Position numbers and translations under genes: made by a program
The notes under the pieces: model-generated
The model's input: only the letters and a program-made list of their open reading frames with translations
What the model was told of the DNA's origin: nothing
The model's database searches: none
Shown: positions 29,144 through 57,755 of the stretch, one piece after another
Position numbering within the stretch: position 1 is the first letter of the stretch
Layout: each line of letters opens with the position of its first letter
From: Halomonas ventosae
Lineage (GTDB): Bacteria; Pseudomonadota; Gammaproteobacteria; Pseudomonadales; Halomonadaceae
Assembly: GCF_004363555.1 (NCBI RefSeq)
Contig: NZ_SNZJ01000010.1
Coordinates: forward strand, 62,001 to 126,000
DNA: 64,000 nt
Direction of reading: 5' to 3'

Positions 29144-29275
29144 TGTGCTGTTTCTCACGTTCGCGTAGATAATTTGGTCAAGAGATCCTTCCATATGCTC
29201 TCATCCATCGGCCCTCCTCTCGTGATCAGTGCCGCTTGTTCGAGCGCAGAAACACGGTCTCGAGGAGAGGTCCGA

Positions 29276-29302
29276 GAGGCGGCCGTCCTGGGACCGCCTT
29301 CT
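29276..29302 (-). terminator. Possible hairpin downstream of the DUF3604 operon
   Basis: The arms AGGCGG and CCGCCT enclose an 11-base loop just after the DUF3604 stop on the minus strand. Weak stem and no U-tract. Confidence 0.3.
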
Positions 29303-29312
29303 TGGTTAACAC

Positions 29313-31271
29313 TCAGCCCTTCGGGGTGAACCAGATTGGCGAGGTGTAGGCCCGCTCCTGCGTGGTCATCGGCACCTCGTCCGGCATCGTCAAGCCGTAG
29401 AACTTGGCGTCGTAGGCGGTCCAGCGCGGGGTTGGGATCTCGATAACGCGGGCGTAGTAGAAGGCGCGTTGAGAGGCGTCAAAGTCCGGGTCGGTCCAGA
29501 CCGTGATCAGTTCGGGGGCTCCGATGGTGTTGGTCCAGGTCGCCTCGGCCACATCCACCGAGTTGCCGACCGGGGGCAGCGTGCCATCGGTGCCCAGCTC
29601 GCGCTCATCGGCATCGCTCCAGACCACGTCATGAACTTTTTCCTGCGTCTCGCCGTTGGCATCGACCCAGCCCTTGATGATCTGTATGCGGTCGAGGTTG
29701 GCGCCGATCGGGTCCTTGAGCGCGGCGACGAGGAAGGTCGGGGCCTTGCCCTCCGGCGCATCGCTGAGGTCCCCGCCCATGGGCACCCCCTTGGTGTAGC
29801 CGGTCTCGGCCGGGAGCCGACTGTGCGCATCCTCGGGCGTATAATCCCAGCCGCCGAAGAAGCGGACGATAATGCGACTGCCGGTGGTGGCATAGGCCTC
29901 ACGCCGCTCCATGGCATCGAAGATCGCTTCACGGGTATTCTCCGTGGCCCACACGGCGGCGTAGCCGGAGGCGGTCACCTCCCACTCCATGATCTGCAGG
30001 TCACCTCGCCTCATGAAGGGTCGCTTGATCCGCTCCGGCCCCGGCTCCATGCTCGAGACCTTGCCGAAGAAGTTATCCTCCTCGGCGGTGGCGAGGCCGG
30101 TATGCGAATCGGTCGAACCGATCAGGCCGAACTTGTAGGGATTCGTGCCGAGCTCCGGCTCAAGGGCCAGCCCGTTCTTCAGCGCCGAGCGGGCATACTC
30201 GAACTCCAGCATGTCCTGCGTCTTCGCCTCGCTCAGGACCAGGTTGCCCTTGTCCCAGGTCTCGTAGTCGGCGAACTCGTCGTTCGGCGAGAGGAAGGGG
30301 TGGGCCTCGCCGTCACCCTTCATCTGCGTCACCTCGTAGAGCGGTTCCCAGCGGGCCCGGCCCTCGGCATAGGCATCATCGATTGGCTGACCGGTGAAGG
30401 ACTCGATGCGCGGGAACATGCGGCCGTTCGAGAGGTTGCCGTTGTGCGCAATGGCGAGTACGTCGCCGCCGGTCTTCTCCTCGTAGGCTTGCATCCACTT
30501 CCAAAGCTCGCGGGGGTTGTCGCTGCCCCAGGGCGCCAGGGTCACCATGGGCTCCATCTGCCGGGCATAGCTCCCGCCGTCGCGGTAGATGACGTTGCGG
30601 TGCAAGTTGTTGCCACCGGAGTTCGAGGTCCACTCATAGCCGATGAAGGCGGTGAAACGGCCCGGCTCGTTGGCCGCCTCGGCCGCCTCGATGGTTTCCT
30701 CCCAGGCCGAGCGATAGACACTCGCGCCCGGCATCGACAGCAGATCCTTCGGGAAGGATCCATCCGAGAAAGAGTTGACGATCTCGAGTGCCGCCTCCAT
30801 CCCCTTGCCGGACTGGACCATGTTGTACCACTTTCTTCCCGTTGGATCCGCCAGCGAGGAAGGGGCGCCCGAGAGCAGTTGCGGGAAGAACCCCATGTTA
30901 TCGGAATGGTCGGCGACGACCAGGAAATCGAGCGGGCGCGAAAGCTTCACCTGCTGACCGCTCGAGGCCATGAGCTCTTCACCCTTTGCAAAGCGATAGG
31001 CGTCCTGCGGCATGAGCCGCGCGCCGGCGGCACCGGCGTCCATGGACATGCCGGTGTGCAGGTGCGTGTCGCCGAAAAACGGTCGCGTGGGGAAATTGCG
31101 CCCGGCATAAGGCGAGTACGGTCGCGGCTGCTGGATACCCTGAAGTGCCTCCTCATCCATCGTGCTGGTGTTGATACCCACGGTCGAACGTTCTTGCGCC
31201 ACGGCCGGAAGGCTCAATACGGCCGCCGTTGAGCCGGCAAGTAGAACTCGGTGAAGCGTTACCCAGGACAT
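29313..31271 (-). CDS. DUF3604 exported protein, PHP-like metal-dependent hydrolase fold
   Basis: A 652-residue protein with a signal peptide (about 1-25, ending PAVAQ). The mature part opens with FGDTHLHTGMSMDA and VVADHSDNMGFF, which look like the metal-binding HxH and following motifs of PHP-type phosphoesterases, and later has GSTDSHTGLA. It is therefore probably a periplasmic metallohydrolase of unknown substrate. AAGGAGA lies before the ATG. It is the third gene of an operon PpiC - HupE/UreJ - DUF3604, 64 bases behind the HupE gene, under the shared island promoter at 33379. Confidence 0.85.
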   Translation of the reverse strand: MSWVTLHRVLLAGSTAAVLSLPAVAQERSTVGINTSTMDEEALQGIQQPRPYSPYAGRNFPTRPFFGDTHLHTGMSMDAGAAGARLMPQDAYRFAKGEELMASSGQQVKLSRPLDFLVVADHSDNMGFFPQLLSGAPSSLADPTGRKWYNMVQSGKGMEAALEIVNSFSDGSFPKDLLSMPGASVYRSAWEETIEAAEAANEPGRFTAFIGYEWTSNSGGNNLHRNVIYRDGGSYARQMEPMVTLAPWGSDNPRELWKWMQAYEEKTGGDVLAIAHNGNLSNGRMFPRIESFTGQPIDDAYAEGRARWEPLYEVTQMKGDGEAHPFLSPNDEFADYETWDKGNLVLSEAKTQDMLEFEYARSALKNGLALEPELGTNPYKFGLIGSTDSHTGLATAEEDNFFGKVSSMEPGPERIKRPFMRRGDLQIMEWEVTASGYAAVWATENTREAIFDAMERREAYATTGSRIIVRFFGGWDYTPEDAHSRLPAETGYTKGVPMGGDLSDAPEGKAPTFLVAALKDPIGANLDRIQIIKGWVDANGETQEKVHDVVWSDADERELGTDGTLPPVGNSVDVAEATWTNTIGAPELITVWTDPDFDASQRAFYYARVIEIPTPRWTAYDAKFYGLTMPDEVPMTTQERAYTSPIWFTPKG

Positions 31272-31335
31272 CGTCTTTCTCCTTCCATCGCTTGAATCAA
31301 AAGGGTTGGTCGTACAGTCCCATCCGCGGTGCTCA

Positions 31336-32325
31336 TCAAAAGCCTGTCACGCGCTCGATCAGCCAGAAGGCCGCCAGCGAGCCGATGGCGTAGGCGGACG
31401 CTCCCGCCCCCCATCGCGAGGGTGCAACACTCACACGACGCCAGGCCCAAAGGCAGGCGGCGACGGCGGCGACGAAGGCGAGCTGTCCCGCCTCGACACC
31501 GAGATTGAAGGTCAGCAGCGCCAGCGGAATATCAGCGGAGGGCAGGCCGACCTCCGCCAGGGCCCCCGCGAATCCGAGGCCATGCAGAAGACCGAAGGCG
31601 AATGCCACGATCCAAGGATGCCGCGCGGTGAGTCCCGGCTCCCCGCGCCCCTGCCGCGCCAGCTCGCTCGCCAGGAAGAGAATGCTGAGCGCGATCACCG
31701 CCTCGACCGGCGCCTGCGGCACGGCGACGACGCCGAGGGTGGCGGCGGCAAGCGTCAGGCTGTGCGCGATCGTGAAGGCGGTGATGGTCTTGACCAGCAA
31801 CGCGGTTCCTCGAACGATCAGCGTCAATCCGAGCACGAAGAGCAGATGGTCAAGCCCGAGCAGGATATGCTCGATGCCCAGGACGAAGTAATCGCCGGAG
31901 ACGGCAAGCGCGGGGCGAGGGCCCTCGATGTCCACCCACGGGGCGGATGGCTTCACGAGATTGGTCTGTGCGGTACCATCACCGAATGCGACCCGGACGA
32001 GCGTATCGGTGCGCATGCCTTCAAGCCCCTCGATGACGACGCGCTGACCGACGATACCATCCGCGCCACAGTCGATCAGGCCACGCTCGACCAGCGCGCC
32101 GGGGACGGCAGGGCCGGTGCCGGCGGCAACCTCGGAGCAGGCCCCAGGCCAGCCGACCGAAAGGCCCAGCGCCTGGTCACCGCGTGCCGGCCGCTTCCAG
32201 AGCACCTCATACTGGCCGGATGGCAACTCGCGAATGTCGAGATAGGCCGGGCGCGACTCATGGGCGCTTGCGGGCGTTGCCCAGAACAGCAGCACGGCCA
32301 ATGCGATAGCGAGCCGGGCGATCAT
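31336..32325 (-). CDS. HupE/UreJ-like membrane protein (type 2)
   Basis: A 329-residue protein: signal peptide (about 1-21, ATPASA then HESRP), a periplasmic N-terminal domain to about residue 145, then about six transmembrane helices with LGIEHILLGLDHLLFVLG and FGLLHGLGFAGALAEVG, the two histidine motifs of the HupE/UreJ fold. The extra periplasmic domain separates it from the short form at 18813. The start ATGA overlaps the PpiC stop by 4 bases, so translation is coupled. Metal or other cargo is unknown; the constant company of PpiC and DUF3604 suggests a shared envelope function. Confidence 0.85.
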   Translation of the reverse strand: MIARLAIALAVLLFWATPASAHESRPAYLDIRELPSGQYEVLWKRPARGDQALGLSVGWPGACSEVAAGTGPAVPGALVERGLIDCGADGIVGQRVVIEGLEGMRTDTLVRVAFGDGTAQTNLVKPSAPWVDIEGPRPALAVSGDYFVLGIEHILLGLDHLLFVLGLTLIVRGTALLVKTITAFTIAHSLTLAAATLGVVAVPQAPVEAVIALSILFLASELARQGRGEPGLTARHPWIVAFAFGLLHGLGFAGALAEVGLPSADIPLALLTFNLGVEAGQLAFVAAVAACLWAWRRVSVAPSRWGAGASAYAIGSLAAFWLIERVTGF

Positions 32326-33218
32326 GGCCGCCCCCTGCCCATTGCCAGCCCAGCCGGCATTGCGTCGGCTTCTTCCTCGATCACCACCTCGTAGCGGGCG
32401 AGGAGCTGGCGATAGATCGCCTCGTTCGCTTGCTGGCGTTGCGCGTGCGCCCAGTCTGCCCTGACCTTCGCCTCTATCTCCGCGAGCGGCGGGGTCACGC
32501 CCGCCTGCCGCCCCTCCAGTCGGACCAGATGCAATCCATAGCCGGACGCGATCGGCCCGGACCAGATGCCCGTCTCAAGTCGCATGAGCGCGTTCACGAA
32601 GTCCTGTCCGAACAGGAGTGCGACCTCCTGTGCCGTGCTGCCACGATAGGTTCGATCGAGCAGCCTGCCGTCACCCAACCCGTCCGGACCGGCATCGCCC
32701 GTGCGCAGGCTTGCCAGCACCACTCGAGCCGCCTGCTCGCCTGCCGCGCCGCGCCGATCCAGGTCGAAGTAGACCTGAGTGAAGGAGAGCCGGGGCGGCG
32801 TGCGATACTGCTCGCGGTTCGCCTCAAACCAGCCGGCGAGTTCCTCGGCAGAAGGTTCGCGCAACGCGGCGAGGTCCTGGGTGACGAACTCGAACTTCTG
32901 TCTCAGCAGACGGCGAATCACCGTATCGTCGCGGTCGAGCCCGAGCGCTAGCGCCTCGCGGTAGAGCACCTCCTCGCGAACCTGTTCATTGATGAGGCCG
33001 GCGACCTCGGCTTCTGTCGGGGGCCGTTGCCAACGCTTCTGCCACAGCGTTTCCAGCCGCTCGATATCCCCCGCCGTCATCACGATCCGGTTGTCAGGCG
33101 AATTGGCTTCCGGATCTGCCGTCGCGCCATAGACTCCAAAGAGCACTCCTCCGATCAGCAGGAAGTGCACCAAGGGTTCCCTCGCGATCCGCGATACGAT
33201 GGACTGTCTGGAGTGCAT
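32322..33218 (-). CDS. PpiC/parvulin-type periplasmic peptidyl-prolyl isomerase
   Basis: A 298-residue protein with one N-terminal membrane anchor (about 17-33, FLLIGGVLFGVYGA), a SurA/PrsA-like helical region (EVAGLINEQVREEVLYREALALGLDRDD split over about 65-95) and a parvulin core (about 140-250) with FTQVYFD and SGPIASGYGLHLVRLEGR. It would assist folding of exported proteins, perhaps those of its own operon. It starts at the ATG at 33218; the shared promoter element lies 161 bases upstream. Confidence 0.85.
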   Translation of the reverse strand: MHSRQSIVSRIAREPLVHFLLIGGVLFGVYGATADPEANSPDNRIVMTAGDIERLETLWQKRWQRPPTEAEVAGLINEQVREEVLYREALALGLDRDDTVIRRLLRQKFEFVTQDLAALREPSAEELAGWFEANREQYRTPPRLSFTQVYFDLDRRGAAGEQAARVVLASLRTGDAGPDGLGDGRLLDRTYRGSTAQEVALLFGQDFVNALMRLETGIWSGPIASGYGLHLVRLEGRQAGVTPPLAEIEAKVRADWAHAQRQQANEAIYRQLLARYEVVIEEEADAMPAGLAMGRGRP

Positions 33219-33340
33219 GTCCGATACCCTCCATGGGCATAAAAAACCGCCAACCATCACGAGTGCGAGATAGCCAGCCAGAGAAGGACTTCACCATTGC
33301 GCCCTAAGGGTGCACCGGGAACTTGTAGGCTAATCTCTCT

Positions 33341-33395
33341 GCTGGAAAAGCCTAGGTGCTTCGCCGCGAGGTCGGTAGTTGGACCTTGGGCCCAC
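33341..33395 (-). promoter_or_regulatory. Island promoter element 1 (upstream of PpiC - HupE - DUF3604)
   Basis: On the minus strand GTGGGCCCAAGGTCCAA (33395-33379) is followed after 22 nt by CCTAGGCT (33356-33349). The same two-part element precedes three other island units. This copy and the one at 37370 also agree downstream (ACTACCG, then CCTAGGCTTTTCCAGC), suggesting duplication of a promoter segment. Confidence 0.7.
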
Positions 33396-33613
33396 TTAAT
33401 ATTGCAGCAGCGCCTCAAGGGCCACCCCTACCTCATGGCGTAGGACGCAAGATGTGGCCATCGGGGCTGAATGCGGCGCCCCTGCACCGCACTCAGTCTT
33501 TATAACTACTGCAGCACAGGCCGAGCGTTAACCGGTTGGATGAGGCAGTTGTTGGGGAAATGGTCCAAACCGATAGGCGACCTGCAAGGTTACCCGGTAT
33601 TCTTGACCACGGC
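33396..33613. other. Intergenic stretch, no gene recognised
   Basis: Between promoter element 1 and the end of the membrane-protein gene. Some dyads are present but no coding signal, attC site or convincing terminator was seen. Confidence 0.4.
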
Positions 33614-34135
33614 TCAGTCGCCGTTCCCTTCTGGCTCTTCCGGCAGGGGCGTCAGGAACATCCTCGCCAGCACGCCCGCGCCCAGGCGTGTGCGGATCAC
33701 GGACAACACGTTGTAGCCCAGCAAAGCACCAGACAGGCAGATGACGTTCGCCCAGACGTGGGGCATATCCAGGTCCCGGAACAACGCACTCAGCGAGGGA
33801 ATAAAGCCGCCATACTCGTGCCTTCCCTCGAAGCCCTTTTCCAGCAGCAGGACGACCAGTACACCAAGGGCGTACAAGGTGGTACGCAGTACAACATCTA
33901 CCCAAGCTGATTGCCGCCGCACCCAGGTCCCCAGGGGTACGTGCTGCATCACCAGCACGACCTTGGACAGGATCAGCGCGCCCACAACCGCCTTGGATAT
34001 ACCACTGAATTCGATATGGTATTCCGCCAGAATGAGCTGCTTCAGCAAGAGAAAGGCGGCCAACCAGCAGCCAAAATAGAGCGTTAACAGTCCCACCGCT
34101 TTTAGCTCGTGGGTCAGCTTTTTTCTCAGTTCCAT
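33614..34135 (-). CDS. Four-TM membrane protein of unknown function, associated with DUF1254
   Basis: A 173-residue protein with hydrophobic segments near residues 13-33, 47-63, 80-98 and 120-140 and a charged C-terminus (PLPEEPEGNGD). A decayed second copy of part of this gene lies at about 37085-37165, next to the intact DUF1254 gene, so the association with DUF1254 occurred twice. The start ATG at 34135 lies 32 bases after the truncated DUF1254 frame. Family not recognised. Confidence 0.7.
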   Translation of the reverse strand: MELRKKLTHELKAVGLLTLYFGCWLAAFLLLKQLILAEYHIEFSGISKAVVGALILSKVVLVMQHVPLGTWVRRQSAWVDVVLRTTLYALGVLVVLLLEKGFEGRHEYGGFIPSLSALFRDLDMPHVWANVICLSGALLGYNVLSVIRTRLGAGVLARMFLTPLPEEPEGNGD

Positions 34136-34166
34136 CGGGTCTTGTTCCCCCACGGTTAACGACACT

Positions 34167-34466
34167 TCAGGCGCTTTCCGACAAAGGCTGACCATTAGCG
34201 GTCTGAATCGCTTTGTCATCAGGCGTGAAAACCCGAGCCATGTTATAGATCTGGTTCCACGGCGCCCTGAACTCCGGACTCTTCCTGTCCACGAAGTAGG
34301 CATACTGGATTCGATAGTTATCTACCACCGGATTGGCGTAGATATAGGCTTCCTTGGCGATCTCGCGGGCTTCCTCCGGTCCTGCTTCGACTTGGGCACT
34401 CGCGAACGATGATATGGGCGTTAGAAGCAGAAGGCAGGAAAGAGCCATTCCGGTACAAGTTCTCAT
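34167..34466 (-). pseudogene. Truncated DUF1254 gene (N-terminal 99 residues only)
   Basis: The frame begins with a signal peptide (MALSCLLLLTPISSFASA) and continues EAREIAKEAYIYANPVVDNYRIQYAYFVD, matching residues about 20-110 of the full-length DUF1254 protein at 35621 (ARAIAKEAYIYGYPMVDGYRIQYGYFVD). It stops at ANGQPLSESA where the intact protein continues TPNSDTPYSF. About 370 residues and the DUF1214 part are gone. The start lies 55 bases after attC site 2, as expected for a cassette gene. A ribosome site (GAAGGGG) is retained, so a short secreted peptide could still be made. Confidence 0.85.
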
Positions 34467-34520
34467 GATGGTGTTCCCCTTCTCGTTGAACTCCGTATTG
34501 AACTACGCAGTTGATAGGCC

Positions 34521-34592
34521 AGATAACGTTTCAGCTCAGCCGCAGACAGCTCGCGAAGCGGGTTGGCCGTCGGCTGGCGCGCCTTGTTGGGT
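34521..34592 (-). other. Integron attC site 2 (end of DUF4239 cassette)
   Basis: On the minus strand the 72-bp site starts ACCCAAC (34592-34586), a perfect RYYYAAC, and ends GTTATCT (34527-34521), near GTTRRRY. Inner arms AGCCGAC and GTCTGCGGCT are imperfect complements with the asymmetry typical of attC. It begins 11 bases past the stop of the DUF4239 gene, the normal place for an attC. Confidence 0.75.
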
Positions 34593-34602
34593 GGCACGCC
34601 AG

Positions 34603-35406
34603 CTACTTAGGTGGATTCGCTGGCGGAAGTGCTCCGACCTGCTCCTGCAGATCGATGAGCGGCTGCTGGCTCACCTTGAGGAATCCGTCGCGCGGTCGAT
34701 CGAGATCGACCACAAGGGTGATAACCGCACCAAGGAGGGCGATCAGCACGATGGTAGTAATGGGGCTGCGCCGCTGGATCAAGCCTGCGTTGTAGCCCAC
34801 CATCCCCAGCGTCAGCATCGAGCCGCAGAAGAGGAGGAGGATGATCGTTTCGGGTACGCGTGCGTAGATGCCCGCCGTTACCCGCGTCTCGTTTAGGTCG
34901 ATCGTCTCGTTCAGTGAGTCAATGAACAGAGCCAGGACGTCAGATTCGGGTGTGGCGCGGGCCAACTCTTCGGCGACTGACCAGAGCTTCTCTTGAAGCT
35001 CGACCGATCGAGTTATTCTCACTCGGACGTCCGCCAGATCGTCGGTCGCGATGCGCAGGGGAACGTACTCGCGGAGCAGATCCCGGATCTCGCTCGAGGC
35101 CGGCTCTGGCAGGTAGCCGGCCCTGAGGTAAGTGGTACCTATGGAATTCGCCTCGGCCAGCACGAGCCCGCGGCGCGTGTCGAAGCGATCGGATGCCATC
35201 CCCATCGCGACCGCGAGCAGGAACGCCATAAGGGCCAGGAGCGAGCCCACGATCATGCCCGTGGGGCCCTCCTTCTCGTCATGCGTGCGCTCCTGCCACC
35301 AATACCCGTAGCGGTAACCAACCTCGATAACGGTCAGCGCGAAGATGCCGAACGCTACGAAGACGCCACCGATCGGCAGTGAATCAAGTATCTGCTGGAA
35401 ACTCAC
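34603..35406 (-). CDS. DUF4239-like (bestrophin-like) membrane protein, cassette gene
   Basis: A 267-residue protein with two N-terminal transmembrane segments (about 10-28 and 50-70), a central helical soluble domain (about 75-185) and two C-terminal segments (about 187-205 and 217-235). This layout matches DUF4239 proteins, sometimes called bestrophin-like. The start is GTG with a purine-rich GAGGGG upstream. The gene is flanked by attC 1 and attC 2, so it is a gene cassette. Function unknown. Confidence 0.78.
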   Translation of the reverse strand: MSFQQILDSLPIGGVFVAFGIFALTVIEVGYRYGYWWQERTHDEKEGPTGMIVGSLLALMAFLLAVAMGMASDRFDTRRGLVLAEANSIGTTYLRAGYLPEPASSEIRDLLREYVPLRIATDDLADVRVRITRSVELQEKLWSVAEELARATPESDVLALFIDSLNETIDLNETRVTAGIYARVPETIILLLFCGSMLTLGMVGYNAGLIQRRSPITTIVLIALLGAVITLVVDLDRPRDGFLKVSQQPLIDLQEQVGALPPANPPK

Positions 35407-35493
35407 CGCCCCTCACGCCTCGGTAGTGGCCAGGTTCGCGAGATGTCGCGAATAGCCGTTATATCGGGCATAGAATAGTCCTTGTATCATGCC

Positions 35494-35583
35494 GTCCAAC
35501 GCCTGAGCTAACCGGGCGGCGACAGAGGCATTGATTATAGATTCCGCGCCCAACCGCCGCTCCGGTTGATCGACTTGTTAGCT
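35494..35583 (-). other. Integron attC site 1 (end of DUF1254 cassette)
   Basis: A 90-bp site on the minus strand, from AGCTAAC (35583-35577) to GTTGGAC (35500-35494, a perfect GTTRRRY). The outer arms AAGTCGATCAACCGG and CCGGTTAGCTCAGGC pair imperfectly, with the extra bases characteristic of attC. It starts 38 bases past the DUF1254 stop codon. Confidence 0.82.
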
Positions 35584-35620
35584 GGCCTGACGAATCCCAA
35601 TGTCAGGCCGATTCATTGTG

Positions 35621-37027
35621 CTAGGGCACTTGCTTTACCGGCGGAGGGTTCCATTTTCCGGTGAGCGCATCGGGCTTCGGCCAGTAGATACGCAGGTAAG
35701 ATGAAAATGGTCCCTTGGGTGCAGGAAGCCAATTCGATTCCATGTTCTTTCCGGGTGACTCGTGCTGGATGTAGAGCGTGAGGCCGCCATCGTCATCCAT
35801 TTTCATGTCCGGCAACATCGGTGAGTTGATGAGGTAGCGGTCGATGGGATTGGCTACCAGCAAGCTCTCCGGCAGCTGATACATGGTGAGCGACCAGAAT
35901 GCATGCGCTGGTGGCAGTTTCCCCTTGGGGAAATGCAGAGTATAGCGGTTAGCGCCGTTGAGCTTTTGGCCGCTAGCGTCAGTAAAATAAATAGGGTACA
36001 TCGCTTCATGTTTTGAATTTCCCCAGATGCCAATGGTTGCAAGCCAGCGATAAAAGTAATTGTTTTTCATGGATGCGCGCGTGCCGAAGACATCGCCGGC
36101 GGTAATTTTACCTTCCGCCAATAACTTCGCGCCGTCCGAAAATTCTTTCCAAGCGTCGACCATGCCTTCCTCGAAGGCTTTCTTCATTTCAGGGGAAAGC
36201 TTTTTGGGATCAAAGGTCTTTCCGGCGCCGATGCCAATCTTGGCGAACCTCTCCATGAGCTCCTTCTCGGACGGAACAGTCGGACTGAATTGCAGGATGA
36301 AATTCAGGATAGTGAACACCTCTAGAGAGCTTTTCTGCTCTTCCTGGCTGATCGGCTTGATGTAGTCGATGGCCGGGGCCGGGGTAGGCGCTGCGGTACC
36401 GAGAAAGGACGAGAGCGGCTCCACCTTGTATCCGGCCTGGATTTTTTTCACGTTGTCGATGTCGGACGGATCAAAAAGTTGAGTGCGATAGATGAGCACG
36501 TTTATCTCGGTCTCGGACTGTATGACCTTCTTGATTCCCTGCGGTTTCTCGCCATTCCAATTCGGGCCAGCCAGCATGATGCTACCCGCTTCGTTACCGG
36601 TGGTTCGGCTGCCGGCATAGGCAAAGTTGAACGTATAGGCGTCGATGAACTGAATCGAATAATAGCGACCTTCTGGAATTTCCGGGACCGTCAGAACGAG
36701 CGGTTCGGCCCGGAGGTCTGCACCGATAAAGGAATATGGCGTGTCGGAATTGGGCGTCTGGACGGCCTTGTCCTCCGGGGTGTAGACGCGCGGGATGTTG
36801 TGGATCTCATTCCACTGTCCCTTGTATTCGGGGTCGGTCTTGTCAACGAAGTAGCCGTATTGGATGCGGTAGCCGTCCACCATGGGATAACCGTAGATGT
36901 AGGCTTCCTTGGCGATGGCGCGTGCTTCCGCAGCACTGATCTTATCTTGGGCGTGAGCCTGGATCTGTGGAAGCGCAAGCAGCGCCGTGATGCACCCCAG
37001 CGCGATGAGTCTTGTGAGTCTTGTCAT
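35621..37027 (-). CDS. DUF1254/DUF1214 exported protein, cassette gene
   Basis: A 468-residue protein with a signal peptide (about 1-24, LIALGCITALLALPQIQAHA). An N-terminal DUF1254 domain (about 30-160) contains AKEAYIYGYPMVDGYRIQYGYFVD and TPNSDTPYSF. A C-terminal DUF1214 domain holds YTLHFPKGKLPPAHAFWSLTMYQLP and ends YLRIYWPKPDALTGKWNPP. Members are widespread in marine and soil bacteria, with no reaction firmly known to me. Start at 37027 with AAAGGA upstream. It is the gene of a true integron cassette; the shared island promoter lies 343 bases upstream. Confidence 0.9.
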   Translation of the reverse strand: MTRLTRLIALGCITALLALPQIQAHAQDKISAAEARAIAKEAYIYGYPMVDGYRIQYGYFVDKTDPEYKGQWNEIHNIPRVYTPEDKAVQTPNSDTPYSFIGADLRAEPLVLTVPEIPEGRYYSIQFIDAYTFNFAYAGSRTTGNEAGSIMLAGPNWNGEKPQGIKKVIQSETEINVLIYRTQLFDPSDIDNVKKIQAGYKVEPLSSFLGTAAPTPAPAIDYIKPISQEEQKSSLEVFTILNFILQFSPTVPSEKELMERFAKIGIGAGKTFDPKKLSPEMKKAFEEGMVDAWKEFSDGAKLLAEGKITAGDVFGTRASMKNNYFYRWLATIGIWGNSKHEAMYPIYFTDASGQKLNGANRYTLHFPKGKLPPAHAFWSLTMYQLPESLLVANPIDRYLINSPMLPDMKMDDDGGLTLYIQHESPGKNMESNWLPAPKGPFSSYLRIYWPKPDALTGKWNPPPVKQVP

Positions 37028-37084
37028 CTTGTGTGTCCTTTGCTGTTGAACGGGATTAAAAACTGGACAGCTAACAACCACCCA

Positions 37085-37165
37085 CGCATATCAGCACTCC
37101 TCCCAGGTCCCCGAGGGTGCGTATTACCTCACCTACACGATCTTGGACAGGATCAGCGCCCCACA
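37085..37165 (-). pseudogene. Remnant of a second copy of the DUF1254-associated membrane protein
   Basis: On the minus strand the bases read GGGGCGCTGATCCTGTCC, then AAGATCGTGTAGGTGAGG and GGGGACCTGGG. This matches the segment GALILSKVVLVMQHVPLGTW of the gene at 33614-34135 but contains stop codons. It lies immediately outside the 5' boundary of the DUF1254 cassette. Confidence 0.65.
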
Positions 37166-37339
37166 GCCGAAGCGGCGCCCTTTCACAGCAGTAGCCGTAT
37201 GACGACTCCTGTGCCTTCCGACCAGGAATGACATGCCTCGCTATCGAGCCGAATGCGGCTTTTTTCAGCAATGGCTAGTTATCGGTACGCCTGAAATCGG
37301 GAGCCGAATGTTGATGGCACACGACTCGTCGCTGGAAAA

Positions 37340-37386
37340 AGCCTAGGCACTTGGCCTGGTAGGCGGTAGTTGGACCTTGGTCCCAT
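37340..37386 (-). promoter_or_regulatory. Island promoter element 2 (upstream of DUF1254 cassette)
   Basis: On the minus strand ATGGGACCAAGGTCCAA (37386-37370) contains the perfect palindrome GGACC-AA-GGTCC read as GGACCAAGGTCC, followed after 22 nt by CCTAGGCT (37347-37340). It would drive the cassette array. Confidence 0.7.
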
Positions 37387-37581
37387 CGCGTTTCATCGCG
37401 GCCCTGTCGGAAACATAGGGTTGGCAAAGGCTTCTTCGCTCCGTGCCGCTCTCAGCGCCTGGCGTTGGGTAGAAGTTGAAAACACGTACCATCGACACAC
37501 TGCCGATCATCGACTGGCTCTTTCGGAAAGTGGGCAACGGCTGATCCGCGCTGGCCGAATCGCCAGGCACGAAAATGCTGA
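37387..37581. other. Divergent region between promoter elements 2 and 3
   Basis: About 195 bases separating oppositely facing copies of the island promoter element. No gene is supported; a minus-strand reading frame here has no ribosome site or family resemblance. Confidence 0.4.
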
Positions 37582-37627
37582 GTGGGACCAAGGGCCAATG
37601 ACGCCAGGACTGGAAAAGGTCTAAACC
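37582..37627 (+). promoter_or_regulatory. Island promoter element 3 (upstream of the regulatory operon)
   Basis: GTGGGACCAAGGGCCAA (37582-37598) followed after 21 nt by TCTAAACC (37620-37627). This would place transcription start near 37634, 20 bases before the TTG start of the receiver gene, suggesting that the two-component system controls itself. Confidence 0.68.
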
Positions 37628-37654
37628 TTCTAGTTCATGCAGGAGGGCCAAGAG

Positions 37655-38053
37655 TTGGCATCGAATCGCTCAGATGTGTCCGTGTTCGTGGTCGATGACG
37701 ATGCTTCCGTGCGTCGTAGCCTGTTGCGACTGCTAGGCGCCGCCGGGTTCCAGGTCGCCGTTTTCGACGCTCCCGACCACTTTCTCGACGCCGTGCGTTT
37801 CAACAAGACAGATAGTTGCTGCCTGCTCCTGGATATCACCATGCCGGGTTCAAGCGGGCTACTGACGATCGAACGCATGCGTCAGCGGGGCATTGACATA
37901 CCAGTGATTGCCCTCTCGGCGACTGACGACGAGCTCACCCGCCGAATGGCCAAACGCCGCGGGGCAAAACTGTTCTTCAGCAAGCCTGTCGACGACAAGG
38001 CATTGCTCGACGCCATCGAGTGGGTGACCGCGTTGAACCAGAACGATGGCTGA
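37655..38053 (+). CDS. Stand-alone receiver-domain response regulator
   Basis: A single CheY-like receiver domain of 132 residues with no output domain. The acidic pair is in VFVVDDDASVRRSL, phospho-acceptor Asp60 in CCLLLDITMPGSSG, the conserved Ser/Thr in ALSAT and the Lys in LFFSKPVDD. The TTG at 37655 is chosen because AGGAGG lies 8 bases upstream; an in-frame ATG at 37637 has no ribosome site and coincides with the predicted transcription start. The sequence resembles the receiver half of FixJ-type regulators. It could modulate the kinase encoded 266 bases downstream. Confidence 0.85.
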   Translation: MASNRSDVSVFVVDDDASVRRSLLRLLGAAGFQVAVFDAPDHFLDAVRFNKTDSCCLLLDITMPGSSGLLTIERMRQRGIDIPVIALSATDDELTRRMAKRRGAKLFFSKPVDDKALLDAIEWVTALNQNDG

Positions 38054-38318
38054 TGCAATGGACGAGTCGGCACCCACAACGGGCTGGCATGGAGCCCGGG
38101 GGCGCCCGACATTCGGGCCCATCTCGATATCACGGAAGGCGACGCACGCCCTCCCCATCGCCGCCCCTCCCCTTCAGGCGCTGATTCCCTGGTGGTCGGC
38201 CAGGGTGATGACGACTTGATCTGCATCAACACCCTATTGGGAATCTGGGCTAGTCTGGAAGGAATTCGGGGCAAGCATCGCTGCCAACCTTGGTGGCGGT
38301 GCTTGTGAGGTGCCCAAT
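38054..38318. other. Intergenic stretch before the sensor kinase gene
   Basis: About 265 bases with no protein-like frame. No copy of the island promoter element is present, so read-through from 37582 or an unrecognised promoter must serve the kinase. Confidence 0.4.
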
Positions 38319-40130
38319 ATGCAGGACGAGATCTACGCGTCAGCCCTCTTCGTGCTGGCGGGCGTGTGGCTGTTCGGGGCTTTCCACCACGGGATGTTGA
38401 GCCGTGGGCGACAAGTCGAGCGCTCCCAGCAGCTGTTTGCCGTCTTCTGCGCGCTGATGGCCGGACATCTCGCCGTGCGAGCCATCGGCCATCACACGCT
38501 TTCGTATGATGCCCTCACGGGCGGGTGGCGCGCCGAGGTCATCACCGCCGCAATGGCGTTCGCCGTCTTGCCCTGGTTCCTGGTCGAATTCACCAACGCT
38601 CGGCCCCGATGGCCGCGTATCGCGCTGAGTCTCTACGTCCTGATCATTGCGCTCGGCGTGGCTGGTGTTCCCGCCACGGGGCCTCTTGCCGATGGCTTGG
38701 CCCCTTGGCATGCCGCGGAACAACCGGAGGCCCCACTCTCTGCCCCCACCCTCCTCTATACCGCCCTGCTCCTGGGGCTGGTAACGGCCCAGCTTGACGG
38801 CATCCTCGCCTGCCGACGGCGGTATCGGTCGGGGACGGCAGGCCGCCACCTGGCAGTCGGCGTGGCACTCGCCGTGTTCACCGTGGGTACCCTGCTCGAG
38901 CTGATGCGCTTGCTGAAGCTGGCGGACACCTCCCCGGCCTTCGAGCTGAGTCTGCTTCCCGCGCTCGTGCTGATGAGCGCGGCGGTAGGACAAGATCAGC
39001 GCCTGAACTGGATGCAGGCGCTGCTGGACCACGTCCCGGCGATGATCACCCTGAAGGACCGGAATCGACGGTATCTGCTCGCCAACAAGGCATTCACGGA
39101 TGAGTACCGTCTTGACACGGCCAGGCTGCGGGGTCGCACGGATCGGCAGCTATTCCCGGGCCAGGATCTCACGACGAGCCACCAGGCCGACACCGATACC
39201 TTCACGAAGGGGGACGAAGTGGAGACGGAGGAGAGGGTGCAGTCACCGGATGGTATCCGCTTCCTGCGCTCGCGGCGCTTCCCCGTATTCGATTCCAACG
39301 ACCACATCTGGGCCTACGGCTGCGTCTCGGAGGATGTGACAGCCTCGCGGAATGCCGACCTGGAAGCGCTCGAGCTTCGCCAGCAACTCACGCACATGGA
39401 GCGGGTCACACGACTCGACGCGATCAGCGCCTCCCTCGCCCACGAACTCATGCAGCCGCTCACCGCAACCCTGAGCAACGCTCAGGCGGGACTGCGACTT
39501 CTGGAGGCTCACCCCTTGTCGATGGAGCCTATCCGCGAAGTGTTGGCCGACATCGCCGCTGATGCAAAGCGTGCGAGCCAGATAGTGAGAACCTTGCGGG
39601 ATATGACGCGACACACGCCATCACCGCACGAGCCAGACGACCTCTCGGAGGCGGTACGCGAGGTTCTCGACATGCTGGGTGCCGAAATGGCACTGAAAGG
39701 TGTTGTCTGCCGCAGGAACCTCGAACCGAGTTGCATCGCGACAGCGAACAAGCCGCAGATCCAGCAAGTCCTTCTCAACCTGCTGCTCAACGCCATCCAC
39801 GCCGTGGAACAGCAGCCCGAAGGGTCCCGCCGGGTCGATGTACGCGCCGAGTTGGATGAGTCCGGGGCGGTGCAGGTTTCGGTACGGGATAGCGGGCAGG
39901 GCATACCGGCTTCCGAGATGCACCGCCTCTTCACCCCCTTCTACAGCACCAAGCCGGAGGGCATGGGAATCGGGCTGGCCGTCTGTCGCAACATCATCGA
40001 ATGGCAGGACGGGCGCATCTGGGCAGAGAGTAACGAGCCGGAGCCAGGTACCACCTTCCGGTTTACGTTACCCGCCCAAGAGTCGCAATTCGCGAGTCAG
40101 CGCGCCGAAGGACGAGGCAACAGGTCATGA
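38319..40130 (+). CDS. Membrane PAS-domain sensor histidine kinase, FixL/StyS-like
   Basis: A 603-residue kinase. About seven hydrophobic segments occupy residues 5-225, followed by a PAS domain (about 235-345; LLDHVPAMITLKDRNRRYLLANKAF). The HisKA-type helix has SLAHELMQPLTATLSNAQAG (His codon at 39441), and HATPase_c has LLNLLLNAIHAVEQ, RDSGQGIP and GMGIGLAVCRNIIEWQDG. The H-box with LMQPL is typical of the FixL/DctB group. The ATG at 38319 follows GAGGTG; a GTG at 38310 is the alternative. The stop overlaps the next gene (ATGA), pairing it with the FixJ-like regulator. Confidence 0.9.
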   Translation: MQDEIYASALFVLAGVWLFGAFHHGMLSRGRQVERSQQLFAVFCALMAGHLAVRAIGHHTLSYDALTGGWRAEVITAAMAFAVLPWFLVEFTNARPRWPRIALSLYVLIIALGVAGVPATGPLADGLAPWHAAEQPEAPLSAPTLLYTALLLGLVTAQLDGILACRRRYRSGTAGRHLAVGVALAVFTVGTLLELMRLLKLADTSPAFELSLLPALVLMSAAVGQDQRLNWMQALLDHVPAMITLKDRNRRYLLANKAFTDEYRLDTARLRGRTDRQLFPGQDLTTSHQADTDTFTKGDEVETEERVQSPDGIRFLRSRRFPVFDSNDHIWAYGCVSEDVTASRNADLEALELRQQLTHMERVTRLDAISASLAHELMQPLTATLSNAQAGLRLLEAHPLSMEPIREVLADIAADAKRASQIVRTLRDMTRHTPSPHEPDDLSEAVREVLDMLGAEMALKGVVCRRNLEPSCIATANKPQIQQVLLNLLLNAIHAVEQQPEGSRRVDVRAELDESGAVQVSVRDSGQGIPASEMHRLFTPFYSTKPEGMGIGLAVCRNIIEWQDGRIWAESNEPEPGTTFRFTLPAQESQFASQRAEGRGNRS

Positions 40131-40780
40131 CGAACCAGGCAACGAGCGAGCCTCGGGTGTACGTTGTCGAGGATGACGACAGCGTTCGTCGGTCCCTCGG
40201 GCGACTTCTCATGGCCAACGGCTACGCGGTGGCCTGTCATGAAAGCGCCGAGAGCATGCTCACGACGCTGCCGAAGAATTCCACGGGATGCGCCCTGTTA
40301 GATATTGGCTTACCGGACATGGACGGGGTTCAACTGCAAGCCTTACTGGCCACCCACAGTCCGGCGTTGGCAGTGATCTTCCTCACGGGCAACGGCGAAC
40401 TTGGTGCCGCCGTCAACGGCATGAAGCATGGCGCCGTCGACTACCTCATCAAGCCGGCCTCCGAGGAGACGCTTCTTCCGGTAGTCCGCGAAGCCCTGCG
40501 GCGAAGTGCCTGCACACTGGCGAGGCTGGCCGCCGAGCAGCGGGTCTGCGAGGCGATGGCTCGGCTCACCCGACGCGAACTTGAAGTCTTGGAACATGTG
40601 GTCGGTGGATGGCTCAACAAGCAGATTGCCGCGGACCTCGGCATTGCCGAGAAGACCGTGAAGGTGCACCGCAGCCGGGTCATGGCGAAGATGCGCGTCC
40701 GCAGCGTGGCAGAGTTGGCGAGACAGTGTCAGATGCTCGGCATTGTCGGCCCGCACTTGCCGGAAGAACCTCCGGAGTGA
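40127..40780 (+). CDS. FixJ/StyR-like response regulator with LuxR-type HTH
   Basis: A 217-residue regulator: receiver domain with VVEDDDSVRRSLGRLL, phospho-acceptor Asp59 in CALLDIGLPDMDG and Lys in YLIKPASEE. A LuxR-type HTH (about 145-205) has LTRRELEVLEHVVGGWLNKQIAADLGIAEKTVKVHRSRVMAKM split over these residues. It is translated with the kinase through a 4-base overlap. The related StyR binds a palindrome with an ACCATGGT core; the island promoter elements have ACCAAGGT, so this protein is the natural candidate to bind them. Confidence 0.93.
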   Translation: MTNQATSEPRVYVVEDDDSVRRSLGRLLMANGYAVACHESAESMLTTLPKNSTGCALLDIGLPDMDGVQLQALLATHSPALAVIFLTGNGELGAAVNGMKHGAVDYLIKPASEETLLPVVREALRRSACTLARLAAEQRVCEAMARLTRRELEVLEHVVGGWLNKQIAADLGIAEKTVKVHRSRVMAKMRVRSVAELARQCQMLGIVGPHLPEEPPE

Positions 40781-40917
40781 CTCACGGCCACCAGTTAACG
40801 AGCCTGAATACGGCCATACTCGCCGCGCTACTGTGCTTGGTCATGGCGGTCAACAGCGTGGTATGGAAGACCGCCTTGGTAATACCGACACCGACGCGAG
40901 AAGTGGTCATGGGATAG
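40777..40917 (+). CDS. Possible 46-residue single-TM small protein
   Basis: A GTG start overlaps the regulator stop (GTGA). The product has a polar N-terminus (THGHQLTSLN), one hydrophobic helix (TAILAALLCLVMAVNSVVW) and a short tail (PTPTREVVMG). Translational coupling and the clean membrane segment support it; no family is known. Confidence 0.4.
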   Translation: MTHGHQLTSLNTAILAALLCLVMAVNSVVWKTALVIPTPTREVVMG

Positions 40918-41180
40918 GCTCCTCAACCGTGGGCAGGGCAGTGGCCCTCACTTCTGTCATTGGGGCGCAACAGCGCCTGTATCGGGTGGGGAGGGCTCTA
41001 CCCCATTGCTTCGCCCGCAGGGTCACCCGTACCAACCCAAGGCTCGCTTCCTGCTGGTGGGCAGCCTTGACCGGGTGAGGTTGGCTGCCCACAAGACTCC
41101 AAAGACAACCGCCCCGGCTGCTCATAGCCGATGTACGAGTGACCAGACTCCTTCTGGCGCACGAATTATGCAGGATCAAG
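40918..41180. other. Intergenic stretch before the beta-barrel gene
   Basis: About 260 bases without a supported gene, ending at island promoter element 4. Confidence 0.4.
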
Positions 41181-41225
41181 TAGGGCCAAGGTCCAATGAA
41201 CGCTTCCGCCTGAATGCTCTATACC
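41181..41225 (+). promoter_or_regulatory. Island promoter element 4 (upstream of the beta-barrel gene)
   Basis: TAGGGCCAAGGTCCAA (41181-41196) followed after exactly 21 nt by TCTATACC (41218-41225). The predicted start of transcription is about 30 bases before the ATG at 41263. Confidence 0.68.
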
Positions 41226-41262
41226 TAAATTCTGGCATCTGGAGTGAACTGAGGGATCTCAA

Positions 41263-41994
41263 ATGCGAACGATCATTCCTACGGTTATCGTAGCCGGGGT
41301 AGCGACAATCGGGTCGGTCTGGTTTTCAACAGCGCATGCTCAGTGGAGTGGTGAAATCACTCCCTACCTCTGGGCGGCGGGTATTGACGGTGATGCGACG
41401 GTTCAAGGTAATGACGTCGAGATCGATGTTGGCTTTGATGACCTTCTCGACAACACTGACCTCGCCGGTTCGGTACTGGGGGTGCTGAGACGGGATAGGT
41501 TGGTGTTCTGGGGCCAGGTTGACTACTTCAGCCTGAGCACTGGTGCAGTGGATACGCCATCCGGCGCGAGCGCTGAGCTGGAGACCGATTCCGTCATCTG
41601 GACGCTGGCGGCGGGCTACCAATTTGATGGCTGGATGCCTGGCCAGCACGTCGACGTCATGTTGGGTGCACGGCAACTTTCTCTGGACAACGAGCTTTCC
41701 ATCAGCGGCGTTGGTACCTTCACGCGTGACAAGGACTATACGGATGCTGTGGTGGTGGTTCGGCCCAGCTTGCCGATCAACGAGCGCTGGCTTTTCAACC
41801 CCACGCTCTCCTTCGGTACAGGGGATTCCGATAGCACGTGGGAACTCTGGCCGCAGTTCCAGTACAAGATTACGGACACCTGGGCGGCACGCATCGGTTA
41901 CCGCCGTCTCCACTACGACATTGAGGGAGACGCCGGGAACGAGTTCGATGCCGCGTTTCATGGCTTAGTGGTCGGCTTTGGCGGATTGTTCTGA
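41263..41994 (+). CDS. Outer-membrane beta-barrel protein of unknown function
   Basis: A 243-residue protein with a signal peptide (about 1-26, ending STAHA). Alternating beta-strand patterns follow (WSGEITPYLWAAGIDGDATV, VDYFSLSTGAV, WAARIGYRRLHYDI) with a C-terminal FHGLVVGFGGLF ending in Phe, the outer-membrane assembly signal. Aspartate-rich loops are conspicuous. It stands directly behind promoter element 4 and is the only gene of that unit, suggesting a pore or surface protein in the island regulon. Confidence 0.8.
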   Translation: MRTIIPTVIVAGVATIGSVWFSTAHAQWSGEITPYLWAAGIDGDATVQGNDVEIDVGFDDLLDNTDLAGSVLGVLRRDRLVFWGQVDYFSLSTGAVDTPSGASAELETDSVIWTLAAGYQFDGWMPGQHVDVMLGARQLSLDNELSISGVGTFTRDKDYTDAVVVVRPSLPINERWLFNPTLSFGTGDSDSTWELWPQFQYKITDTWAARIGYRRLHYDIEGDAGNEFDAAFHGLVVGFGGLF

Positions 41995-42379
41995 AGTTTT
42001 TCCCCTAGGACGCATCGAAGCGTGTGGCGTGCCTTGGTTCGGTACGCCATCGCTGGAGCGAAGGGGACAAGAGTTCACAAATCTGACCGCCCTGAAGTAG
42101 CGACCCGTCCCGCCAACAGTCGCGGAACGTCCAGCCGCGGGTCCACGACTGCATAATCAGAACTCATGTTCTTTTAGTCAATCTAAAAAGCTGAACTATT
42201 GCCAAATAAACAACAGCACTCTGGTTAGCATGTAGGCAAGGTTGCACGGCTCACAAAAATCTTAGAAGAACCATTTTGGAAAGGCGATCATAATGATTAA
42301 CTCAACCCAGAAAAAAGGGTTGGCTAAAAATCAAAGAAACAGTATTAAGTTACATTCAAACGTCAATGGAAGCCATTGA
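41995..42379. other. AT-rich intergenic stretch
   Basis: About 385 bases, the second half clearly AT-rich (poly-A and TTAAG tracts near 42170-42370). It probably holds the promoter of the glycine-zipper gene; no copy of the island element and no gene was seen. Confidence 0.45.
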
Positions 42380-42880
42380 ATGAACATTGTGCCACGAATT
42401 TTACTTGGGGTTTCGTTTCTATGCTTCGGGTTTTCCGTATCGGCCCAACAGTCAATTGTCTACCCAGCCAAGGGACAAACAGCAACACAACAAGCTAGTG
42501 ACGAGGCCGCTTGTCATGCATGGGCCAAGCAGTCAACAGGCATAGACCCTGCAGTCGTCACCCAAAGCCCCACTCCATCCTCGCCACAAGCTGGGACGAC
42601 ATCGGGCAGTGGCGGTGAGCGCTTTCGCGGCGCCGTGCGTGGAGCTGCGGGTGGCGCGCTGATTGGCGAAATCGCCAACGACGATGCCGGCGAAGGGGCC
42701 GCCATCGGCGCCGTGGTCGGCACCATGGCTGGGGGACGTCGGGCACGGCAGCAGCAACAGCAGATGCAGCAGCAACAGGTCCAGCAGCAGCAGACACATA
42801 GTCAGCAGCAACAGCAGATGGACACCTTCAGCCGCGCCTACGCCGCCTGCATGGAAGGGCGTGGCTACACCATCCGCTGA
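42380..42880 (+). CDS. Glycine-zipper exported protein with Gln-rich segment
   Basis: A 166-residue protein with a signal peptide (about 1-22, FCFGFSVSA then QQS), a YMGG-like glycine zipper (about 75-113; RGAVRGAAGGALIGEIANDDAGEGAAIGAVVG split by the loop), a Gln/Met-rich tract (about 115-147) and a C-terminal FSRAYAACMEGRGYTIR. The ending is shared by many small envelope proteins. Probably periplasmic or outer-membrane associated. The Gln tract is encoded by a CAG-rich stretch at about 42747-42820. Confidence 0.75.
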   Translation: MNIVPRILLGVSFLCFGFSVSAQQSIVYPAKGQTATQQASDEAACHAWAKQSTGIDPAVVTQSPTPSSPQAGTTSGSGGERFRGAVRGAAGGALIGEIANDDAGEGAAIGAVVGTMAGGRRARQQQQQMQQQQVQQQQTHSQQQQQMDTFSRAYAACMEGRGYTIR

Positions 42881-42948
42881 GTCACACGACACCGCTTCGG
42901 GATCATGCCCGGGCGACAGCAAAACGTGAGAAACACAAGGAGAGTCAG

Positions 42949-43596
42949 ATGAGAGTGTCATTCCACCTGCGACGTCTGGCGCTGGCCACAGGAACGTTGC
43001 TTGTCGCCCTGCAGGTTTCCATGGCCGGGGCGTCCGAGTTTATCGAGGAGATGCCCGAGCTTTCCCAGGACCCGGATCGTGCCGGGGCCATGATCTGGGA
43101 AAGCCCTGATTTCAGGAGAGAAGACTACACCCGGGTGATGATAGAGCCGATCACCATCTATATCAGTCCCGAGTCCAAGGAGAAGGGGCTCAGGGCCAAT
43201 GAGCTCAAGGCACTGGCAGACGGATTCGTGGAAGCGGTAACCATTTCACTGGAGCCGGAGGTTCCCGTGGTCAGTCAGCCTGGACCTGGAGTGCTCTACA
43301 TTCGTGCGGCTCTCGTTGACGTGAAAATGGATAACAAGAAGCGTGGCCTGATGGGGTATACCCCCATCGGTTTCGTTGTCACAGCGGCCGCCAATGCGGC
43401 GGGAGCACGCATCATCTTGAGCGATGCCGTCCTTGAGGTCGAAGTCCTTGACTCGGTCAGTGGCAAGCGGCTGGGGGTGCTGACCGACAAGGCACCGAGC
43501 TCAGCGGATGGCGAGAACCTCTCCTGGGACTCCATCAGCCAGACCCTCACCTACTATGCTGGGCGCTTCAAACAGCGCATGCAGATCGCGCAGTGA
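42949..43596 (+). CDS. DUF3313-family exported protein
   Basis: A 215-residue protein with a signal peptide (about 1-29, ending SMAGA) but no lipobox cysteine, although many DUF3313 proteins are lipoproteins. The domain shows WESPDFRREDYTRVMIEPITIYIS and a C-terminal WDSISQTLTYYAGRFKQRM. AAGGAGAG precedes the ATG. It is the first of several genes in the same direction ending with the PlpD-like gene. Function unknown. Confidence 0.82.
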   Translation: MRVSFHLRRLALATGTLLVALQVSMAGASEFIEEMPELSQDPDRAGAMIWESPDFRREDYTRVMIEPITIYISPESKEKGLRANELKALADGFVEAVTISLEPEVPVVSQPGPGVLYIRAALVDVKMDNKKRGLMGYTPIGFVVTAAANAAGARIILSDAVLEVEVLDSVSGKRLGVLTDKAPSSADGENLSWDSISQTLTYYAGRFKQRMQIAQ

Positions 43597-43765
43597 GTTC
43601 AAAAATGTGGCTGGAACGCGATCTTCCAGCTCTACGGGCCTCGAGCCCTGGTTCGATAAGGACCGGAGGCTCCGCGAGATTGAGCTGATGGAATAAACAG
43701 TCGACCAGCGAGGTGCAGCAGCTGCGACTGCTTGAGGCATGCTGAGGGGTACGGAGCAAAAAAAA
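43597..43765. other. Intergenic stretch, no gene recognised
   Basis: About 170 bases between the DUF3313 and barrel genes. Short frames are present but none has a ribosome site with a family resemblance. Confidence 0.35.
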
Positions 43766-44596: not shown

Positions 44597-44643
44597 CCCC
44601 GTACCGATGGATGGGTAGCCCATGACCTCGTGGAGAACCTGAC

Positions 44644-45216: not shown

Positions 45217-45270
45217 CGGCGCCCCCATCCCGCGCATCCGCGATACCCCAGGGGATAGAAGGCGATAACG

Positions 45271-55823: not shown

Positions 55824-57755
<1,932 letters not shown>

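Follow-up and report, generated by a model that had tools for sequence, protein, structure and literature searches.

Island Genes and Operators

The window analysed in this study, i.e., a stretch of 64,000 nucleotides of the Halomonas ventosae contig NZ_SNZJ01000010.1, contains an inserted island of 18.5 kb (29128-47620) that carries a FixJ/StyR-type response regulator, its predicted target genes and four 16-bp near-palindromes that are referred to here as operators A-D. Operators A (33379-33394, TGGGCCCAAGGTCCAA) and B (37370-37385, TGGGACCAAGGTCCAA) lie on the minus strand, and operators C (37583-37598, TGGGACCAAGGGCCAA) and D (41181-41196, TAGGGCCAAGGTCCAA) on the plus strand, each given in the sense of its downstream gene; their form in the window is T[GA]GGNCC-AA-GGKCCAA. 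Each of them is followed on the same strand by a -10 hexamer of the form TANNNY, namely TAGGCT at 33349-33354 (site A) and at 37340-37345 (site B), both 24 nt from the 16-mer, TAAACC at 37622-37627 (site C) and TATACC at 41220-41225 (site D), both 23 nt from it. With the hexamer placed at -12 to -7, the palindrome is centred at -43.5 when the gap is 23 nt and at -44.5 when it is 24 nt. The initial annotation had described the four palindromes at these positions and in one orientation relative to the downstream genes, with a YCTANRCY box 22, 22, 21 and 21 nt after them, and both descriptions agreed with our re-reading of the window sequence. Its view of the second element as a conserved -10 also held, although the element was refined to an ordinary sigma-70 -10 hexamer, TANNNT.

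The regulatory operon, which follows operator C on the plus strand, starts with a receiver-only response regulator (37637-38053; PF00072, E 3.3e-22), the ATG of which begins 9 nt after the hexamer and in which no DNA-binding domain was matched in the Pfam scan. It continues with a membrane PAS histidine kinase (38310-40130; HisKA, HATPase_c and PAS_4, with a 7TM match below the cut-off), and its gene overlaps the start of that of the FixJ/StyR-type response regulator (40127-40780; PF00072, E 3.7e-24 and PF00196 (GerE), E 8.7e-20), the proposed binder of the operators. The latter has the FixJ/NarL-type architecture of an N-terminal receiver and a C-terminal LuxR-type (GerE) helix-turn-helix (HTH).

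Behind operator A, on the minus strand, lie the genes of a PpiC-type peptidyl-prolyl isomerase (32322-33260; PF13145, E 8.5e-12), a HupE/UreJ-type membrane protein (31336-32325; PF13795, E 2.6e-48) and, third, a DUF3604 protein (29313-31271; PF12228, E 4e-250). The unit of operator B, which is also on the minus strand, is an array that begins with a DUF1254/DUF1214 protein (35621-37081; PF06863, E 2.3e-43 and PF06742, E 1.5e-36) and contains a bestrophin-like membrane protein (34603-35406; PF14023, E 6.8e-18), a short DUF1254-like remnant (34167-34466) that had no Pfam match and is in part repeated from 36838-36929, and a protein that was judged by eye to be a membrane protein and matched no Pfam family (33614-34303). 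Internal duplications were seen in this array (34283-34374 and 36838-36929, with a 78% DNA identity, and 33922-33990 and 37102-37169), which fits a cassette that has been duplicated and has decayed. The plus-strand unit of operator D starts with an outer-membrane beta-barrel-like protein (41263-41994; PF13505, E 4.5e-06, slightly under the curated cut-off), followed by a glycine-zipper envelope protein (42380-42880; PF13488, E 1.4e-08), a DUF3313 protein (42949-43596; PF11769, E 2.6e-31), a protein with an SNPIAS motif that belongs to no Pfam family and whose own family recurs in 10 loci, the window included (43739-44596), a YSC84-domain protein (44644-45216; PF04366, E 1.2e-11) and a patatin-like phospholipase fused to an Omp85-type barrel (45271-47502; PF01734, E 1.5e-35 and PF01103, E 5.7e-13). 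Judging by strand and gaps, each of the four units is probably transcribed as one messenger.

Uniqueness of the Operators in the Genome

The pattern TRGGVCCAAGGKCCAAYKA, which was written from the four sites, matched the window five times at up to three mismatches (0.28 expected), and none of 100 shuffles of the window reached five matches. The initial annotation had named a random frequency of the motif across the genome as the outcome that would speak against a shared element. In the 4.02-Mb genome, the only matches at zero to two mismatches were the four operators; ten more appeared at three mismatches, and the total of 14 was then on a par with the 13 of the reversed control. With the broader consensus TTGGACCWWGGTCCAA, up to two mismatches being allowed, the four operators and one weak place were found (two in the control). 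Moreover, a matrix of 60 sites from relatives gave scores of 17.0-23.5 to the window operators and of 0.0 to the best position elsewhere in the window; those 60 sites had been chosen with a matrix whose 35 sites included the four of the window. Because of the shuffle, genome-wide and reversed controls, a chance origin of the four palindromes was excluded. The broader idea that the elements are GC-rich palindromes produced by chance, terminators or copies of a dispersed repeat hardly deserves credence: the genome is GC-rich and another genome holds 86 copies of a similar palindrome, but such an origin is contradicted by the uniqueness of the sites in their genome, by the reversed controls, by the constant spacing to the -10 and by the rank of the palindrome among 1024 candidates, which is given below.

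Conservation of the Operator with the Regulator

An alignment of the window FixJ-like protein and four plasmid homologues was scanned against one genome per species, and the best 80 of at least 443 confirmed relatives, with an identity of 40-50%, were kept (loci L051-L130). When 1024 palindromes of the form xyzNuv-NN-reverse complement were ranked over these 80 loci, the top one was TGGNCC, seen 29 times in 21 loci vs. 2.2 expected; with three plasmid loci added (83 loci), there were 31 vs. 2.3 expected, only palindromes with at least six occurrences being ranked. The second-ranked palindrome was CGTNGT-NN-ACNACG (15 in 15 loci vs. 2.0 expected), which may be a coding motif within the regulator gene. 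The operator consensus was ATTGGACC-WW-GGTCCAAT, which equals TTGGACC-WW-GGTCCAA, and the palindromic sites of the relatives read ATTGGACCAAGGTCCAATag. A matrix built from the four window sites alone, at its weakest own score, gave 28 matches in 24 of the 80 loci vs. none in the reversed sequence; 5 bits lower it gave 80 matches in 49 of the 80 loci vs. two, and 7 bits lower 111 matches in 64 loci vs. 16. The combined symmetric matrix of 35 sites found 103 sites with a score of at least 13 in 62 of 85 relatives' loci, one of which (L049) had been fetched through PpiC, compared with four in the reversed sequence; the window-only matrix is far less circular, as it was built from the window sites alone.

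The operator was located within 1.5 kb of the regulator gene in 48 of 77 loci and in none of the 29 loci around other FixJ-like genes (103 kb in total, about 1.5 kb either side of the gene). These 29 other regulators fell on one side of the tree (97/82, with a bootstrap that had not settled completely), on which 12 changes were needed for the site label vs. 36.5 when it was shuffled. Additionally, the signature EKT[VI]KVHRxR went with the site, being present in 57 of 62 site-bearing loci and 12 of 20 others (Fisher p 0.002). By record title, the site-bearing loci belonged to Pseudomonadota, Verrucomicrobiota and Thermodesulfobacteriota, with named isolates that included L060 and L097, and, through metagenome-assembled genomes only, to Acidobacteriota, Nitrospirota, Krumholzibacteriota, Rokuibacteriota, Latescibacterota, Myxococcota, Bacillota and Hydrogenedentes. 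Thus, the four-promoter regulon that had been proposed for this island was supported, and the system is not confined to the island, since the same operator is found beside FixJ-like homologues in distant phyla.

The opposite direction, from motif to regulator, was followed with the strict motif TTGGNCCWWGGNCCAA, which was found in four of 369 genomes of the class; this is fewer than in the reversed control (about 20 genomes), and the motif is therefore not a generally enriched sequence. One of the four genomes carried an 86-copy repeat, two had single variant palindromes and G398, which was reached by the motif alone, had two TTGGACC-type sites. Apart from the window's own genome, G398 also has the best-matching relative of the regulator (49%, 3.7e-53), and the other three have only distant receivers; as G398 is the genome of locus L059, this test is not fully independent of the homologue sample. 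The 86 copies in G345 (L132 and L136-L139), which are TTGGGCCWWGGCCCAA-type palindromes, apparently represent a dispersed repeat family. In 15 further class genomes whose FixJ matches reached E <= 1e-42 (39-45% identity), no site of at least 13 was found within 1.5 kb except for a weak one of 13.3 in L206. Likewise, no site was found in the WSM419 locus L140 (best score 6.6), which has a kinase, a FixJ-like gene and, by eye, DUF1254-like genes, and this weighs against a universal link.

The proposal of the initial annotation that the FixJ-like protein at 40127 is the candidate binder of a shared promoter element with a conserved -10 gained support from the co-occurrence with the clade, the fixed -10 spacing and the motif-to-regulator test, all of which are sequence comparisons. 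A rival view is that another, unlinked DNA-binding protein uses the palindrome and that the FixJ-like link reflects shared islands only. Any operator on an island would co-occur with its genes, as these move as a block, and in some genomes sites are found on contigs other than that of the regulator. We nevertheless regard this as very improbable: only kinase (75) and FixJ/receiver (83) gene clusters were present in most loci, the next cluster reaching 26, the sites peaked at up to 1 kb from the regulator (54 of 95), and the recognition-helix signature goes with them.

Promoter Architecture and Proposed Mode of Action

Among 108 oriented sites (score of at least 15, a gene within 400 nt, five rows from the window), TANNNT followed the 16-mer at exactly 23 nt in 36, and at no more than six for any other offset from 8 to 49. 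In the 64 sites that have TA at 22-25 nt, 56 matched at most four of the six bases of TTGACA at -35 (63 at a control position) and eight matched five of six (one at the control position); hence, some of these promoters do have a -35 box. Receiver-only genes within 130 nt of a site had a TA hexamer at 22-25 nt in 32 of 35 pairs, and in 21 of these 32 the first in-frame start codon came 1-9 nt after the hexamer, compared with four of the 26 other genes that have the hexamer (54 examined); a start codon that close is expected by chance in roughly one in seven by our estimate. This suggests that the receiver genes, including that of the window, are expressed from leaderless or nearly leaderless mRNA. 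Candidate leaderless receiver genes with an ATG a few nucleotides past the -10 were seen in several phyla (L090:10666, L125:10626, L061:9100 and L089:13837).

The best explanation of the whole, which we hold to be very probable, is that a kinase, a FixJ/StyR-type regulator and their operator activate the sigma-70 promoters of the four island units. The membrane histidine kinase would phosphorylate the regulator, and the phosphorylated dimer would bind two 7-bp inverted half-sites around a 2-bp spacer, centred approximately 43-44 bp upstream of the transcription start. There it would contact RNA polymerase in the class II fashion and activate promoters that have a TANNNT -10 and usually no good -35. 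The predicted targets are the PpiC-HupE-DUF3604 genes, the DUF1254 array and the envelope run of the barrel, glycine-zipper, DUF3313, YSC84 and patatin-Omp85 proteins; the receiver-kinase-FixJ operon would be its own target, i.e., under positive autoregulation. The receiver-only protein, which is a recurrent and often apparently leaderless first target, would probably feed back as a phosphate sink or adaptor.

A dimer that covers -51 to -36 might instead act as a repressor that blocks polymerase until its phosphorylation state changes. The position alone cannot separate activation from repression, the receiver-kinase-FixJ operon has a site, as in negative autoregulation, and eight of the 64 promoters have a near-consensus -35 box. 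Repression is improbable in our view, given that the -10 is kept at one exact spacing and that 56 of the 64 promoters have the poor -35 match expected of activator-dependent promoters. FixJ is an activator. StySR is likewise reported to activate its genes (PMC3224230).

Several observations weigh against the activation of the four island units by the FixJ-like regulator. Since the patterns used to select the 80 loci cover the recognition helix, the sample is conditioned on that helix. When the columns of the window-only matrix were shuffled symmetrically 300 times, the figure of 80 matches was reached once (mean 8.0). There was no site of at least 13 in the DNA examined for 20 of the 82 FixJ loci, and these site-less loci are scattered on the tree (13 changes vs. 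18.7 shuffled). In 25 chosen genomes or records, TTGGACCWWGGTCCAA at up to two mismatches gave about 120 matches vs. 70 in the reversed control, which was higher in several of them, and with a control so high many of those matches are due to chance. At the promoter level, the exact TANNNT spacing is limited to a third of the oriented sites, the symmetry of the palindrome leaves the orientation of a site uncertain where genes diverge, and near-consensus -35 boxes exceed the control. The 386-nt gap at 41994-42380 may hold another promoter. Target genes differ between loci, relatives of the island families also occur in site-less loci (barrel, three of nine with a site; DUF3313, two of four), and L049 has PpiC-HupE-DUF3604 without a site of at least 13.

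Regarding its distribution, we consider it somewhat probable that the operator is part of a pan-phylum code, in which one FixJ/StyR-type clade kept its operator 23 nt before a bare -10 in Pseudomonadota, Verrucomicrobiota, Acidobacteriota, Thermodesulfobacteriota and others, while sensor domains and targets were swapped. The islands would then spread as plug-in regulons of poorly understood envelope genes, with the leaderless receiver as an autoregulated brake.

Predicted Target Genes and Partner Kinases

In 120 site-gene pairs, five of which came from the window, the gene after the site belonged to the FixJ/receiver family in 45, was a kinase in 15, belonged to a sulfatase cluster in six and was a DUF1254 gene in three. 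The 25 commonest families that were listed for 141 further operon proteins (up to four genes per operon, window excluded) included at least 14 sulfatases, five DUF3300, four DUF1254/1214, three DUF2950, two DUF2092 and two FGE proteins, each of these numbers being a lower bound. Sulfatase genes were present in 26 loci, 19 of which have sites. The neighbours of sites on the regulator's own and on other contigs were also scanned (20 proteins, 15 with a Pfam match and five without). On the regulator's contig, sites were near glycine-zipper and DUF2950 genes, and in L170 a homologue of the glycine-zipper protein had an operator upstream. On other contigs, they were near genes for an AI-2E transporter, a Phenol_MetA_deg barrel, an Asp-Ala exchanger, DUF3141, BON, an alginate-export-like porin, HlyD-DUF3302, DUF3300, a sulfate permease, an apolipoprotein N-acyltransferase-like protein and OmpA. 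For root nodule bacteria, DUF3300 and DUF2950 are reported to lie together and to have been induced in two RNA-seq studies, with no function known for either (PMC4653623).

The families of the island recur elsewhere: PpiC, HupE and DUF3604 in L061, and YSC84 and patatin in L047 and L070. PpiC-HupE are also found in L048, where only Rrf2- and LacI-type regulators are annotated in 20.8 kb, and together with L049 this indicates that the PpiC-HupE(-DUF3604) genes are not always members of the regulon. The output of the regulon looks like the cell envelope, and remodelling of the envelope may be its role; the sulfatases, transporters and decarboxylases among the predicted targets leave room for a wider physiology. 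An adjacent kinase was present in 60 of the 82 FixJ loci, and the kinase sensor domains vary (of 60, PAS_3 37, GAF 10, ABC_sub_bind 4, MASE1 3 and 7TM 3).

Comparison with Known Systems

The closest solved chain to the regulator is 1yio (phmmer 4.1e-39), which is listed as a response regulatory protein and which we take to be StyR; a receiver (REC) domain with a LuxR-type HTH and a kinase partner are further points of likeness to StyS-StyR. The StyR box has an ACC-N2-GGT core, and the core of the window operator matches it. Unlike that of StyR, the operator here is extended to TTGGACC-N2-GGTCCAA and spread widely over phyla, and the genes that it is predicted to control encode envelope and DUF proteins, sulfatases and a receiver-only protein. 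StySR switches on catabolic genes in response to styrene (PMC3224230). No styrene catabolic families were found among 18 window proteins that were scanned with Pfam, two of them from outside the island. The best NCBIfam matches were FixJ for the regulator (177.2 bits, below the curated cut-off of 255) and FixL for the kinase (152.4 bits, below the cut-off of 850). The tetrathionate system TtrS-TtrR has the FixJ-type architecture in common, and the TtrR match reached 155.8 bits, which is below the cut-off of 290. NarL-type 7-2-7 operators consist, as here, of two heptamers around a 2-bp spacer, and the proposed binder here has, like NarL, a LuxR-type HTH; the present operator differs in its half-site sequence and in having one conserved site at the -43 position.

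The Sinorhizobium medicae TcsA-TcrA-FsrR-lpiA acid response involves a two-component locus on a plasmid (PMC4674904 and PMC5613336), and the lpiA plasmid also carries a FixJ homologue. An acid-stress, lpiA-type system was suggested by the Asp/Ala exchangers and decarboxylases that follow some sites. It was rejected, as the lpiA region (L167) has, by eye, other receiver proteins and regulators and no site above a score of 5.

A two-component regulon with a LuxR-type HTH is as such a known arrangement. No paper that describes the operator was found in open-access text, in which the full operator strings were also searched; subscription journals and figures were outside this search, and an earlier description is possible. 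Within the same text, neither the phylum-wide conservation of the operator with the regulator clade nor the self-contained inserted layout was found. Taken together, the comparisons point to a widespread genetic switch that has apparently not been described. The common view is that response-regulator operators diverge quickly; since this one is conserved across phyla, its regulon can be read from sequence alone. This would give DUF1254/1214, DUF3604, DUF3300, DUF2950, DUF2092, DUF3141 and DUF3313 a common regulatory identity and make their role testable through one signal.

The Island as an Insertion

The island is bounded by a 91-bp direct repeat, the left copy of which (29037-29127) is the 3' part of an FMN-reductase-like gene and is 92.3% identical to the right copy (47621-47711). 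In two sister species (L213 and L214), the site is empty and both flanks meet within a single 91-bp copy. In seven more sister loci (L215-L218, L220, L221 and L235), the gene that opens the right flank also had a match nearby; most of the 29 sister loci that were compared are too diverged for a base-exact reading of the insertion site. The GC content per kb was 0.54-0.68 in the island and mostly 0.66-0.73 outside it, where a single dip, at 22 kb, reached 0.545. No tRNA was found in the window, no integrase among the island proteins scanned with Pfam, and no close orthologue of the regulator in the 36 other genomes of the genus that were searched, in which the best listed matches had about 30-38% identity. 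As judged from the sequence, the regulator, its operators and its targets arrived jointly as one discrete insertion. It would be a natural example of a module that carries its own transcriptional control into a genome, and the system also provides a candidate set of leaderless receiver genes. Outside the island, another direct repeat of approximately 115 bp with a 77% identity was observed at 56274-56387 and 57126-57239.

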